From Gemmatimonadaceae bacterium (lineage in GTDB: Bacteria; Gemmatimonadota; Gemmatimonadetes; Gemmatimonadales; Gemmatimonadaceae): a stretch of DNA of 33,650 bases. The stretch lies in contig JAICKA010000020.1 of the NCBI GenBank assembly GCA_025928185.1, forward strand, positions 1 through 33,650, written 5' to 3'. Made by a program: the position numbers and the translations under genes. Below, piece by piece: positions 9,008-12,980 of the stretch (position 1 is the first letter of the stretch; each line of letters opens with the position of its first letter). The notes beneath the pieces were generated by a model, which was not told where the DNA came from, made no database searches, and saw nothing but the letters and a program-made list of their open reading frames with translations.

Positions 9008-10694
9008 GTCGCGCCTCCGCGACGTGCTCGCGCATCGGCGATGGGAGCGCCGGCATCGACGCGAGGTGCACCGTCGACGTCGGGAACGCGAACGATGTCC
9101 CCGCGCGCTCCACCACATCCATGAATTGCAGCAGCACGTCCTGCCGGATCGTCTGAAACTCTCCCCAGTCCGACGTTTGGAACCAGGCCATCACGTCGAT
9201 GTTGAGCGACGACGGCGCGAGCTCGCCGAAGCGCACGACCACCGCGTCGGGCCAGATGAGCGGATGGCTGCGGAGCACGCGCTCGAGTCCCTGGAGCACA
9301 GTTCGCATTTGCGCCGCCGTGGTCTCGTATACGAGGCCGACGGTGAGCGCGAGGCGCAGGCGATCGCGCACGGCGAACGACTCCAGCCGCATGTCCGCAA
9401 GCCGGCCGTTCGGCAAGGTGATCAGCGTCCGGTCGAGCGTCCGGAAGCGCGTCGAGCGAAGCCCGATGGCTTCAACCGTTCCGACAAAATCATCGACGTG
9501 CACGAAGTCGCCCTCGCGGAATGGCTGATCGATGCCGATCGAGAACGCGCCAAACAGATTCTCTACAGTCTTCTGCGCGGCGAGCGCGAGCGCCAGCCCG
9601 CCGATGCCGAGCCCCGCGATCAGGCTCGTTACCGGGTAGCCGAGGATCGACAGCATCGACATCAGCGCGAGCACGCCGACCAGTACCTTGATCGTGCGAG
9701 CGCCGAGCGGAATCAGCGAGCGCGATGCGGGCGTCGTGGTTGCCCAGCGCGTGTGCGTGGCGAATTGGCGGCCGACGTCGATCGCGCGCCAGAGCGCCCA
9801 GAAGAAGACGACGGCGTACGCCGCCTTGATCGCGCGGAACGCCGCCGCCCGCCCCGGTGCGTACAGCTCGAGCAGCGGAAGCAGCGCCGCGAGCACCGCC
9901 AGCGCCGTCGCCGCGGTGAGCGGCCGCGCCAGGCGCGACACGATCATGTCGTCGACATCCGAACGCGAGCGGCGCGTCAGCCATCGAAGGAGTTGGCGCA
10001 GCAGGCGAGCCGCGGCGATTCCGAGCACGAGCGCGACGATGAGCAGCGGCACGATCGCCAGCCATTGCCATACCGCCACGTCGAGCGGTCCGGCGCGCAG
10101 CAGCGCACTCGGCAAGTGGTCGACGAGCCAGCGATTGCCGAGCGTCGCGTACCACACGGGAATACGTTCGACCGTCGCGCGCGAAAAGCGCCACGAGGGC
10201 GCCGTCGAGTCGGCGGTTGCGACAGTCGACGATCGGCGGAGACGAACTGGTTCGCGGCCGATTCCTGGTGCGTCGATCGCGGCGACCTGATCGACGCCGC
10301 GCGGCAGTCCGTCCGCGGTATCGCCCTGGGCCGCGGGCGACACGGTGGTCAGATCGAGCCAGGCATACTGATCGAGCACGAGCTTGAGCTGCCGCGCGAG
10401 ATCGGCGGCGCGATCGATCCCGGTTGCCGGCGCATCCAGGAAACGAGCGGCATGGGCAAAGTCACCGGACCCGGCGGCGTCGAAGAAGTCGCGCAGGGCG
10501 GCCCGTGGCGAATCGGGTGTGACGGTGGTGTCGGGCGCGACCACGCGCGCGGCCGCGGCCGGCGTCGTGCTCGGTTGCTGCGCGGAGCCCGTCCGCGCGC
10601 CGCCCACGGAAAACGCCGCGACCAGGGCGGCCGTTCGGCTAAACGAGGACGGGGAGAGGCGTCGCAGTATCGATGTAAGTAGTTGATAGATCAC
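9000..10694 (-). CDS. Mechanosensitive ion channel, MscS family, with N-terminal periplasmic domain
   Basis: Inner-membrane channel that opens under membrane tension and releases solutes on hypo-osmotic shock. From GTG 10694 it is 564 residues: a signal peptide ending ARTGSAQ (to about residue 39), a periplasmic domain of about 160 residues, two TM pairs at about 205-300, TM2/3 at about 330-385 with the pore helix GLGIGGLALALAAQKTVENL, and the MscS beta domain beginning QPFREGDFVHVDDFVGTVEA, with LDRTLITLPNG. The C-terminal domain is short. An in-frame ATG at 10778 would add 28 residues and push the signal peptide inward; GTG 10694 lies just behind a TATATT -10-like box, so the message may be leaderless. 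Overlap with otsA supports an osmotic-stress operon. Confidence 0.92.
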   Translation of the reverse strand: MIYQLLTSILRRLSPSSFSRTAALVAAFSVGGARTGSAQQPSTTPAAAARVVAPDTTVTPDSPRAALRDFFDAAGSGDFAHAARFLDAPATGIDRAADLARQLKLVLDQYAWLDLTTVSPAAQGDTADGLPRGVDQVAAIDAPGIGREPVRLRRSSTVATADSTAPSWRFSRATVERIPVWYATLGNRWLVDHLPSALLRAGPLDVAVWQWLAIVPLLIVALVLGIAAARLLRQLLRWLTRRSRSDVDDMIVSRLARPLTAATALAVLAALLPLLELYAPGRAAAFRAIKAAYAVVFFWALWRAIDVGRQFATHTRWATTTPASRSLIPLGARTIKVLVGVLALMSMLSILGYPVTSLIAGLGIGGLALALAAQKTVENLFGAFSIGIDQPFREGDFVHVDDFVGTVEAIGLRSTRFRTLDRTLITLPNGRLADMRLESFAVRDRLRLALTVGLVYETTAAQMRTVLQGLERVLRSHPLIWPDAVVVRFGELAPSSLNIDVMAWFQTSDWGEFQTIRQDVLLQFMDVVERAGTSFAFPTSTVHLASMPALPSPMREHVAEARRG

Positions 10695-10711
10695 TACTTG
10701 ACAATATATTG
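10677..10711 (-). promoter_or_regulatory. AT-rich promoter and dyad at the mscS start
   Basis: On the minus strand TATATT (10708-10703) is a good -10 box, with TTGCGG 16 bp upstream as a possible -35. It would place the transcription start within a few bases of GTG 10694. The arms AAGTAGT (10677-10683) and ACTACTT (10693-10699) are perfect inverted repeats 9 bp apart across that start. The self-complementary CAATATATTG lies at 10702-10711. Confidence 0.4.
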
Positions 10712-10803
10712 ATCCCAAATGATCCCGCAACCGCGCGCCCGGTCCTCGAGCGCTTCGGTCGACTACGGGTTGCGCCAACAGCCCGGATTGGCGAACCTTC
10801 GAT

Positions 10804-10828
10804 AATTCCGATGGTATTCATCGGAATT
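10804..10828 (+). promoter_or_regulatory. Perfect 25-bp dyad upstream of the FTR1-Rrf2 operon
   Basis: AATTCCGATG (10804-10813) and CATCGGAATT (10819-10828) are perfect 10-bp inverted arms around GTATT. GATAAT at 10801-10806 is a fair -10 box overlapping the left arm, so a bound protein would block initiation. The dyad lies 56 bp before the permease ATG. The obvious candidate ligand is the Rrf2 regulator encoded in the same operon, but that is inferred. Confidence 0.6.
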
Positions 10829-10884
10829 GACGCTCACGCGCCGTCGATGCCGACGGCGGACCCGCCGTTCTGCCGTTCTCACGA

Positions 10885-11874
10885 ATGACCCATATCGCAG
10901 TCGCTCGAAGTCGGTCGTTTCAGATCCCCCGCGCCGCCGTGCTCGCCGGCGCCGCGCTCGTGCTCGCGCTGCTCATCTGGCAAGCGATCGCGCAATCCGG
11001 CGCACCGGACCCGACGCTCGCCCGCACGACCACGCCCGCGGCGGTGCTCGACATTGCGGTGCTCGTCTTCCGCGAAGGGCTCGAGTGTATTCTCGTGCTC
11101 TCGGCGATCACCGCCGGTATGCGCGGCCGGCAGACGCAGCATCGAGAACCGATCGCGTGGGGTGCGCTCGCCGCGGCGGGCGCCACGATCATGACCTGGA
11201 TCATCGCGATTCGCGCGATCGACGCGCTGAGCCGGAACGTGTCGGCACTGCACATCCAGGCGGTGACGGGCCTGCTCGCGATCGTCGTGCTGCTCGTCGT
11301 CATGAACTGGTTCTTCCATCGCATCTACTGGACGGGCTGGATCGGGGCGCACAATCGGCGCAAGCGCGACCTGCTTGAATCCGCGGGCTCGAGCGAACAT
11401 TCGCACCGGCAGCTGCTGCTCGGCCTCGGCATGCTCGGCTTCACGTCGGTGTATCGCGAAGGCTTCGAGGTCGTGCTGTTCCTCCAGAGCTACCGCTTGC
11501 AGCTCGGCGGCGCGGTGGTGCTCGGCGGCGTCGTGATCGGGACCGCCCTGGCGGCCATCGTCGCGGTGCTGACGTTCGTGCTGCGGCGCAAGCTGCCCTA
11601 TAAGAAAATGCTCGTGGTCACCGGCCTGATGCTCGCCGTCGTGCTGTTCGTGATGGTCGGCGAGCAGGCGCAGGAGATGCAGCTCGCGCACTGGCTGCCC
11701 ACCACGCCGATTCACGCGCTCACCGGCCGCATTCCCGACTGGGCTGGCCTGTGGTTCTCGGTGTTTCCGACGGTGGAGACGCTGCTCGCCCAGGCCGCCG
11801 CGGCGGTGTTGATCTTCGGCTCCTACGCCCTCGCCCGGGCTCGTACGCTTCGTGCCGCGGGAGGCGCCGCATGA
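10885..11874 (+). CDS. FTR1-family high-affinity iron permease
   Basis: A 329-residue polytopic membrane protein of the FTR1/EfeU family, which moves Fe(III) or Fe(II) inward. Both diagnostic REXXE iron-binding motifs are present: REGLE at 63-67 (LVFREGLECILVLSA) and REGFE at 191-195 (SVYREGFEVVLFLQS). About seven or eight hydrophobic segments are visible, the first at 16-36 acting as signal anchor. There is no fused cupredoxin or ferroxidase and no EfeO/EfeB-like gene beside it. Its TGA overlaps the ATG of the Rrf2 gene as ATGA, so the two form an operon, and a perfect dyad lies upstream. Iron transport fits the motifs; the redox partner, if any, is elsewhere. Confidence 0.92.
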   Translation: MTHIAVARSRSFQIPRAAVLAGAALVLALLIWQAIAQSGAPDPTLARTTTPAAVLDIAVLVFREGLECILVLSAITAGMRGRQTQHREPIAWGALAAAGATIMTWIIAIRAIDALSRNVSALHIQAVTGLLAIVVLLVVMNWFFHRIYWTGWIGAHNRRKRDLLESAGSSEHSHRQLLLGLGMLGFTSVYREGFEVVLFLQSYRLQLGGAVVLGGVVIGTALAAIVAVLTFVLRRKLPYKKMLVVTGLMLAVVLFVMVGEQAQEMQLAHWLPTTPIHALTGRIPDWAGLWFSVFPTVETLLAQAAAAVLIFGSYALARARTLRAAGGAA

Positions 11875-12356
11875 GAGTCACCAACGTCGCCGAGTACGGA
11901 ATGATCTGCGCGCTGCACCTGGCGCGCCGCGACGGCGCACTCGTGTCCGGCCGCGAGATCGCGGCGTCCGAACGGCTGCCGGCGGACTCCGTTGAGCAAA
12001 TTCTCATTCGCCTGCGGCGGGCGGGCATCGCGCGGAGCACGCGCGGTGCGCACGGCGGCTACCGTCTCGCGCGGCCCGCGGGCGAGATCTCCGTGCGCGA
12101 CGTGGTCCAGGCGGCGGAGGAGTCGGTGTTCGAGCTGAATTGCGAGTCGCATCCGGTCGACTCGTCGCGGTGCGCGCCGTCGCATGCGTGCAGCATCCGT
12201 CCCGTCTGGTTGCTGTTGCAGACGCGGATCAACGACGTGCTCGCCGGCGTGTCGCTCGCCGATCTGCTCGCCCTCGAGAGCGATCTCGGGCACGCGCAGG
12301 CCGCCGGCGATGTGGTGACGTCGCTCACACGACTGCTGCCCGTCCTGGCCGGCTAG
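11871..12356 (+). CDS. Rrf2-family transcription regulator, probably Fe-S
   Basis: A 161-residue winged-helix repressor of the Rrf2 family (IscR, NsrR, RirA, CymR). The N-terminal half has the family pattern: MRVTNVAEYGMICALHLAR, a helix-turn-helix around SGREIAASERLPADSVEQIL, and the wing GAHGGYRLARPAGEIS. The cysteines C91, C101 and C107 lie in the loop where IscR, NsrR and RirA bind an Fe-S cluster; the C-X9-C-X5-C spacing is closest to RirA (C91, C99, C105). This suggests iron or redox sensing. ATG at 11871 overlaps the permease stop and has GGGAGG upstream, within the permease gene. Being downstream of an FTR1 permease with a dyad in front of the operon, it probably controls that operon. 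Confidence 0.92.
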   Translation: MRVTNVAEYGMICALHLARRDGALVSGREIAASERLPADSVEQILIRLRRAGIARSTRGAHGGYRLARPAGEISVRDVVQAAEESVFELNCESHPVDSSRCAPSHACSIRPVWLLLQTRINDVLAGVSLADLLALESDLGHAQAAGDVVTSLTRLLPVLAG

Positions 12357-12449
12357 ACGTTCGCGCACGCGAAGGGCACGACACGTGCGACTTCCTCCCG
12401 CGTCCGGTGCCGCATGGAGCGGCCCGGAAAGTTCCAGGAGGATTCTGTC

Positions 12450-12980
12450 ATGCGTAAATACGAAACGGGAGCGGCGCTCCGCTCCGGCGCGCTCGTGCTC
12501 TGTCTGAGCGCGGCGCCGCTGATGTTCGCGGGCGCCCAGACCGGGGCGACGATCGGCAGCACCAGCCCGACGCCGGCCACGAGTGCAACGGCCAGCAGCA
12601 CGAACCCGGCGCCGAACACGAGTGCCGCGACGAGCAGCACCAATCCGTCGCCGAACACGAGCGCGACGGGCGTTGCCGGTACGGCCGGCACGCAAGGCTC
12701 CGCGCTCGGAACGTCCAGTCCGACGATACCGGCGCCCACGCCTGAGACGTATGGCACCGGCGCGAATGCCGCCACGCCCGCCGCGACCGGTGTGAACGGC
12801 GGCACGGCGGCGGGCACGTACGATCAACAGTACTCGAACGGCGGCAGCAGTGGCGCGTGGGGCTGGCTCGGATTGATCGGGCTGTTCGGTCTATTCGGTC
12901 TGCGTCGCCACACCAACGACCTCGGCACGCCGACCACGACGACCGCCTACGAAACGCGCGATACCGTTGGCCGTCCGTAG
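12450..12980 (+). CDS. Secreted low-complexity protein with WGxxGxxG C-terminal segment
   Basis: A 176-residue exported protein of unknown function. It has a signal peptide ending near AGAQ (residues 1-30), a long Thr/Ser/Pro/Ala/Asn-rich linker at 31-125 with imperfect repeats of the type SSTNPAPNTSA, then GAWGWLGLIGLFGLFGLRR near 134-152, matching the WGxxGxxG tail found on surface proteins of several phyla. A polar stretch of about 25 residues follows. The start is ATG 12450 with AGGAGG 8 nt upstream. It lies 93 bp after the Rrf2 gene on the same strand and could be cotranscribed. Its last 34 bp overlap the end of the oppositely oriented oxidoreductase gene. The linker is probably an extended cell-surface spacer. 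Confidence 0.8.
   Translation: MRKYETGAALRSGALVLCLSAAPLMFAGAQTGATIGSTSPTPATSATASSTNPAPNTSAATSSTNPSPNTSATGVAGTAGTQGSALGTSSPTIPAPTPETYGTGANAATPAATGVNGGTAAGTYDQQYSNGGSSGAWGWLGLIGLFGLFGLRRHTNDLGTPTTTTAYETRDTVGRP

Follow-up and report, generated by a model that had tools for sequence, protein, structure and literature searches.

A family-wide operator before iron-uptake genes and a probable change from Fur to an Fe-S Rrf2 repressor in Gemmatimonadaceae

In Gemmatimonadaceae, the repression of iron uptake appears to have passed from Fur to an Fe-S Rrf2 protein resembling RirA and RisR, a reading that is drawn from sequence comparison and to which a probability of roughly 70% is given here. The locus under study lies in a 33,650-nucleotide stretch of DNA (contig JAICKA010000020.1 of assembly GCA_025928185.1; hereafter the window) from a genome of 3.71 Mb in 288 contigs (90% complete), and comprises a perfect inverted repeat, an FTR1-type iron permease gene and an overlapping gene for an Rrf2-family regulator (Table 1). 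The original prediction took these elements for a self-contained iron-responsive module with a possibly new Rrf2 subgroup. Comparison with relatives bore out that the dyad is real and is conserved as an operator before genes of iron uptake, while the self-contained module and the new subgroup were not upheld. The finding is larger than first noted, namely a probable change from Fur to Rrf2, of which the window is a duplicated, operon-linked case.

The permease belongs to the FTR1/EfeU type by its Pfam match above the cut-off and by two REXXE motifs, REGLE (from residue 63) and REGFE (from residue 191), both of which had been recognized from the start, while its scores stay under the cut-offs of TIGR00145 (79.4 bits versus 303.8) and of the EfeU equivalog NF041756 (49.5 versus 255). 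The predicted 4-bp overlap with the Rrf2 gene is likewise correct, as the last base of FTR1 is 11874 while the start codon of Rrf2 lies at 11871 (ATGA). A leftward gene for an MscS-type channel forms a divergent pair with FTR1, the gap being 106 bp if the channel begins at its first TTG (10778) and larger if it begins later; the intergenic stretch used for the tests of the dyad was 10683-10884. Behind the Rrf2 gene, positions 12450-12977 (+) encode a protein with a WGxxGxxG-CTERM sorting motif (NCBIfam NF038039, above cut-off), which also holds a repetitive stretch rich in Thr, Ser, Asn and Pro.

Table 1. Features of the FTR1-Rrf2 locus, in positions of the window.
Feature	Position	Strand	Basis
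Sigma-70-like match TTGATA-16-TATATT, upstream of dyad	10683..10710	+	promoter scan
GATAAT, -10-like hexamer, weak	10801..10806	+	read from sequence; missed by promoter scan
25-bp dyad, predicted operator	10804..10828; arms 10804-10813, 10819-10828	.	fits family motif AATYCCGA-N9-TCGGRATT
FTR1-type iron permease, 329 aa	10885..11874	+	Pfam PF03239 49.6 bits, cut-off 25.3
First REXXE motif, REGLE, residues 63-67	11071..11085	+	FTR1 translation
Second REXXE motif, REGFE, residues 191-195	11455..11469	+	FTR1 translation
Rrf2-family regulator, 161 aa, overlaps FTR1 by ATGA	11871..12356	+	Pfam PF02082 107.2 bits, cut-off 30
Glu8 codon, candidate fourth cluster ligand (ScNsrR Asp8 position)	11892..11894	+	invariant in 36/36 aligned relatives
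Predicted cluster loop Cys91 to Cys107, C-X9-C-X5-C	12141..12191	+	translation and alignment

The dyad, AATTCCGATG-GTATT-CATCGGAATT, is present at 10804-10828 with arms free of mismatches, as first described, and its 3' end lies 56 bp upstream of the FTR1 start. The perfect repeat alone was rejected as proof, since chance yields such dyads across the GC-rich window: perfect repeats of this form (arms of 10 bp, spacer of 3-9) number 3 in the whole window against a mean of 1.9 and a maximum of 6 in 30 shuffles. Within the stretch 10683-10884, however, such a dyad arose in only 7 of 2000 shuffled versions. Its significance derives from conservation in relatives. The window dyad scores 30.1 bits against a matrix trained without FTR1 sites, and the only other FTR1-Rrf2 pair found, an operon in a genome of the same genus (G116, JAQBQB010000022.1, seen as L013 and L042), has the dyad upstream, as the original prediction expected of related pairs, with AATCCCGATACGATACGTCGGGATT at the matching position, in register, and a compensating change in both arms (AATTCCGA/TCGGAATT versus AATCCCGA/TCGGGATT). 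The reported overlap of GATAAT with the dyad amounts to 3 bp of the left arm, and no -35 fitting this hexamer was seen on inspection by eye. The sigma-70-like match is the sole one in 10600-12500 (mean of 0.2 in shuffles) and could be the FTR1 promoter or a chance match.

A conserved FTR1-Rrf2 pairing was considered and rejected, as an Rrf2 frame adjoins a close FTR1 only in the window genome and G116 among 19 family loci and 80 further listed loci on genome contigs, some of them duplicates and some ended by contig edges. Close homologues of the permease (about 56-65% identity) stand in records titled Acidobacteria, Verrucomicrobia, Ktedonobacteria and others (loci L043-L121), a scatter which suggests that the permease spread horizontally without its regulator. 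An operator travelling with the permease was also discarded, since only 2/72 non-Gemmatimonad FTR1 loci reach at least 12 bits (12.4 and 13.3), while a site is found in 6/8 Gemmatimonad loci of the same comparison, the split being made by record title; a Fur box with up to three mismatches precedes 7 of the 72.

Within the family, the exact motif AATYCCGA-N9-TCGGRATT occurs at 29 sites in 26 of 179 genomes and, with one mismatch allowed, in 63 genomes, while the reversed-pattern control gave none in either search. With two mismatches allowed, a site precedes the long FTR1-fusion gene in all six genomes of the window genus, other matches of that search being probably chance in part. The window genome has its second site (C57:22128-22152) before its second FTR1 gene, a fusion, and no Rrf2 gene was found on that contig. 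The operator precedes genes for TonB receptors, PepSY_TM proteins, HmuY and FTR1, mostly without an Rrf2 gene close by, and the module is hence not self-contained. In a hand-picked subset of site-bearing loci, 20 site-adjacent proteins scanned with Pfam comprise ten TonB receptors, three PepSY_TM proteins, two HmuY proteins, one FeoA+DtxR-C protein and one CbiX protein, besides one PD40 protein, one phytase-like protein and one lacking any Pfam match, so that 16 belong to the uptake, iron or haem type, with CbiX as a 17th. Among the 19 close FTR1 loci of the family, eight have no site, including Fur-less members of genera g8 and g20.

The regulator reaches the Rrf2 superfamily model TIGR00738 (101.4, cut-off 73.3) and stays below the equivalog models for IscR (73.8 versus 207.55; 53 versus 275), RirA (53.8 versus 193) and NsrR (35.7 versus 182) as well as the model of the Xanthomonas-type SUF regulator (TIGR02944; 86.2 versus 110.65). 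Its cysteines are Cys13, Cys91, Cys101 and Cys107, the last three spaced C-X9-C-X5-C on the translation, as had been read initially, in a loop before the long helix, as expected of the Fe-S branch of the family. Cys91, Cys101, Cys107, Glu8, His94-Pro95 and Arg58 are invariant in 36/36 aligned copies, and the string C-X9-C-X5-CSIRPVW occurs in 35 of them, with CSIRPIW in the remaining one (G041).

In Rhizobium and relatives, Fur lost its role as the repressor of iron uptake. The window regulator is proposed to work like RirA of these bacteria, although the cysteine loop of RirA is X7/X5 and that of the window protein X9/X5, and although the operator of RirA is the IRO box instead of AATYCCGA-N9-TCGGRATT. 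RirA is an Rrf2 protein with no relation to Fur or DtxR; it represses the genes of iron uptake in the [4Fe-4S] state and dissociates once its cluster decays at low iron (PMC6748827, partial text). The spacing that had been taken as the sign of a new subgroup is already known from RisR of Myxococcus xanthus (group IS6; C92-X9-C102-X5-C108), which represses in its holo Fe-S form and has a GAC-N7-GTC core with the same half-site spacing as the operator (PMC9973013, partial text). However, RisR controls isc and suf, while the sites here precede iron uptake genes. The same text states that IscR residues S40, E43 and Q44 are not conserved in RisR; in the present proteins, by contrast, E42 and Q43 are invariant and align by eye with IscR E43 and Q44. 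The type-1 site of IscR also measures 25 bp, with site A of Pseudomonas aeruginosa, AATCCTGAGTAATTTGATCGGTCTT, very near to the operator, but the loop of IscR is X5/X5 (C92, C98, C104; PMC3899308, partial text), and the window copy sits with FTR1, not with isc genes. The cluster of Streptomyces NsrR (ScNsrR) is bound by three cysteines and Asp8 of the partner subunit (PMC5411485, partial text), to which the carboxylate at residue 8 and the three cysteines of the window protein are alike.

An Rrf2 relative (E up to 0.001) is found in 170/179 family genomes, a number of them with weak matches only, and the strong ones are 56-70% identical among the matches listed. In 19/21 neighbourhoods, fumC (Lyase_1 + FumaraseC_C) lies directly upstream of the Rrf2 gene; in the other two, it lies about 2.1 kb upstream (G041) or is absent from the stretch (G141). 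The window genome itself carries, directly after fumC, another Rrf2 gene of this type, which again speaks against the self-contained module. The FTR1-linked copies of the window genome and G116 cluster with each other and apart from their fumC-linked copies (one branch, support 100/97 in a midpoint-rooted tree). The window Rrf2 is thus the FTR1-linked paralogue, found in two genomes, of an orthologue that nearly all members of the family have and that usually adjoins fumC. Autoregulation of the fumC-linked copy was considered and dropped, since a first matrix gave no site in 21 loci, and a softer one gave a 12-14-bit match in 3/21 fumC-rrf2 stretches, two of which are fumC coding sequence (L148, L189); with no convincing site before the pair, that copy is probably not autoregulated in this way.

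Fur itself is unevenly distributed. A PF01475 match above the cut-off exists in 114/179 family genomes, the marginal match of the window genome counted in, while in the genus of the window genome and in genera g2 to g5 it is absent or weak only. The marginal match (24.3 bits) is the sole one in the window genome and belongs to a PadR protein, with 71.5 bits to PadR and 23.6 to FUR in a second search made for this match alone; with the PF01475 profile, no Fur was thus found in this genome. The window operator read as a Fur box was therefore rejected, its sequence also being unrelated to that of the Fur box.

The relation between the two elements was followed at the promoters of FTR1-fusion genes, with Fur classed by PF01475 E-value as strong (<1e-20), "short" (1e-20 to 1e-10) or otherwise absent. 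DNA before 80 loci was taken, five of which were too short (n = 75), with G034, G165, G167-G176 and a few fragments left out of the sample, and a fixed stretch was scanned, at a threshold of 12 bits, with a matrix built from 25 sites that do not precede FTR1 genes. The operator was found at 38/41 promoters without Fur, 12/12 with "short" Fur and 7/22 with strong Fur (9/22 once two unfused g15 genes, which the scanned stretch misses, are added), that is, in 50/53 genomes without strong Fur versus 7/22 with it, counts that take no account of kinship. The canonical Fur box (up to three mismatches) shows the opposite distribution (2/41, 1/12 and 16/22, or 3/53 versus 16/22, again without correction for kinship). 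Shuffled stretches reached at least 12 bits in 18/1500 and held a Fur box in 24/1500; an earlier count, in which some start codons were misjudged, had given a site at 49/74 promoters, in 0.5% of shuffles and in 3/72 coding stretches. In the Fur-less lineages, the operator hence stands where relatives have Fur boxes, although the two sequences are unrelated.

By genus, the site is present in 15/17 genera with members lacking strong Fur, and among the 12 strong-Fur genera the Fur box is present in ten and the site also in seven. Within genus g7, the operator was found in 5/5 genomes without strong Fur, all of them "short", and in 0/8 with strong Fur, five of which have a Fur box; counter to this pattern, a site of 21.8 bits precedes the short FTR1 gene of G037, which belongs to g7 and has strong Fur. 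Seven promoters carry both elements (G079, G083, G113, G138, G157, G158, G159) and four carry neither (G021, G025, G029, G039). A Fur box without strong Fur occurs in G159, whose PF01475 match is 2.8e-20, and in G129 and G143, whose genera mostly bear Fur, so that the Fur gene may be missing from these two assemblies. Slightly more likely than not is a handover from Fur to Rrf2 that was independent of RirA in Rhizobiales and of which living relatives would still show every stage, from Fur box through both elements at one promoter to the dyad, with the window as the next step, in which a duplicated, autoregulated Rrf2 became tied to one permease.

As to which protein reads the operator, a cluster-binding Rrf2 is the most likely candidate, since the size and centre of the site match both the IscR type 1 site and the RisR core. 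In a sample of the phylum, 20 of the 197 genomes that carry an Rrf2 orthologue at E up to 1e-30 contain the exact motif, against 1 of the 198 in which none was detected, and the Rrf2 gene itself stands behind dyad and FTR1 in the window and in G116. The site adjoins Rrf2 in these two genomes only, and no Rrf2 was found in 19 stretches round other sites. In three genomes, G009, G160 and the 96% complete G131, the FTR1 fusion is preceded by a site but no Rrf2 orthologue was found in the assembly, which speaks against Rrf2 as the reader, G131 most of all. Separately, the distant class member G410 has two very similar exact sites (C10:50681-50705, C22:36040-36064) and no detected Rrf2 orthologue. 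Rrf2 is also present in many Fur-positive genomes, hence its older role may differ.

If an Rrf2 protein is the reader, the fumC-linked copy might work all sites, with the FTR1-linked copy as a drifting duplicate or local antagonist. This is conceivable but rather doubtful: the FTR1-linked copy occurs in two genomes only, that of the window sits on a long branch (1.22), and sites are conserved in genomes without such a copy, but the window copy retains its three loop cysteines and Glu8, as well as almost every column that at least 35 of 36 copies share (Tyr40, which is Ser here, being an exception), and the order operator-FTR1-Rrf2 is common to both genomes.

That another metal regulator, most plausibly of DtxR type, binds the operator, with the FTR1-linked Rrf2 as a passenger or directed at another target, is improbable. 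PF02742 is found in 165/179 family genomes, Fur-less ones among them, one site precedes a FeoA+Fe_dep_repr_C gene, and G131 combines a site and DtxR with no Rrf2 found. However, the presence of DtxR does not follow that of the site, since six genomes (G021, G025, G029, G094, G095, G108) with DtxR and without an Rrf2 orthologue have no site, and in two genomes it is Rrf2 itself that stands behind the site. In its 25-bp CCGA-N9-TCGG geometry, the operator matches the IscR type 1 site (PMC3899308, partial text). The DtxR box, in contrast, comprises 19 bp.

Similarly little weight is given to a dyad-binding Rrf2 protein whose signal would be NO, O2 or redox stress, in the manner of NsrR or RsrR, iron uptake then being tuned within a stress response. 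None of the 20 scanned proteins behind sites, most of which are uptake proteins, has an NO- or oxygen-detoxification domain, a further difference from NsrR, and operator and Fur box replace each other at the same promoter. The linkage of Rrf2 to fumC, whose product is an oxidant-stable fumarase, points the other way, as does the combination of three cysteines with a carboxylate at residue 8, which resembles ScNsrR (PMC5411485, partial text).

Returning to an iron-sensing Rrf2 repressor, its cluster would probably be of [4Fe-4S] type, with Cys91, Cys101 and Cys107 as ligands and possibly also Glu8 from the partner subunit. With plentiful iron, the holo dimer would occupy AATYCCGA-N9-TCGGRATT and block RNA polymerase; with iron short, the cluster would be lost, and Rrf2 would leave the DNA, which would allow the production of FTR1 permeases, TonB receptors, PepSY_TM proteins and haem-binding proteins. 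Since the window Rrf2 gene overlaps FTR1 behind the same operator, both are probably co-transcribed and Rrf2 autoregulated, so that in iron-replete cells holo-Rrf2 would repress FTR1 and its own gene. Repression is expected by analogy with RirA and RisR, and the placement of the sites is consistent with a blocking of RNA polymerase: the -35-like TTGAC lies in the spacer and points to the gene in 9/26 site loci (L127-L132, L137, L138 and L142 among L122-L147), and the site end coincides with the ATG in 42/57 FTR1-fusion promoters having a site. The operator is hardly likely to be an activator site instead, for although its position varies, from about 47-137 bp before the start of short FTR1 genes to the ATG of these 42 fusions, its overlap with TTGAC or the start codon fits occlusion, and RirA and RisR are repressors (PMC6748827, PMC9973013, partial texts). 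At FTR1-fusion promoters, a -10-like GATAnATT stretch often falls within the operator spacer (e.g., L245 and the C57 site of the window genome, 22128-22152), and with the site ending on the ATG the transcripts may be leaderless, operator, -10 and start codon overlapping.

In a literature search whose scope left aside preprints and most subscription papers, no paper naming both Gemmatimonad and Rrf2 was found, nor, judged by titles and abstract beginnings, one on an iron regulator of the phylum. The present analysis predicts a testable iron regulon with its operator for a soil phylum, and provides a DNA target ready for biochemistry on Rrf2 proteins of the C-X9-C-X5-C, Glu8 type. If true, the reading would give a second case, reached by convergence, in which a cluster-sensing repressor took the place of a metal-binding one. 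As intermediates may survive among living relatives, the order of the rewiring steps could then be read directly.

Two arrangements of sites stand apart from the single operators. At L338 (3895-6128), the operator lies between divergent genes for an HmuY haem binder and a Fe_dep_repr_C + FeoA protein, so that a DtxR-type regulator may itself be under operator control there. Before TonB receptors at L330 (5633-5706) and L331 (5125-5197), near-operators form pairs 48-49 bp apart, one site of each pair having an altered arm, CCGTCAA; such variants occur singly in other genera and may constitute a second class of site.
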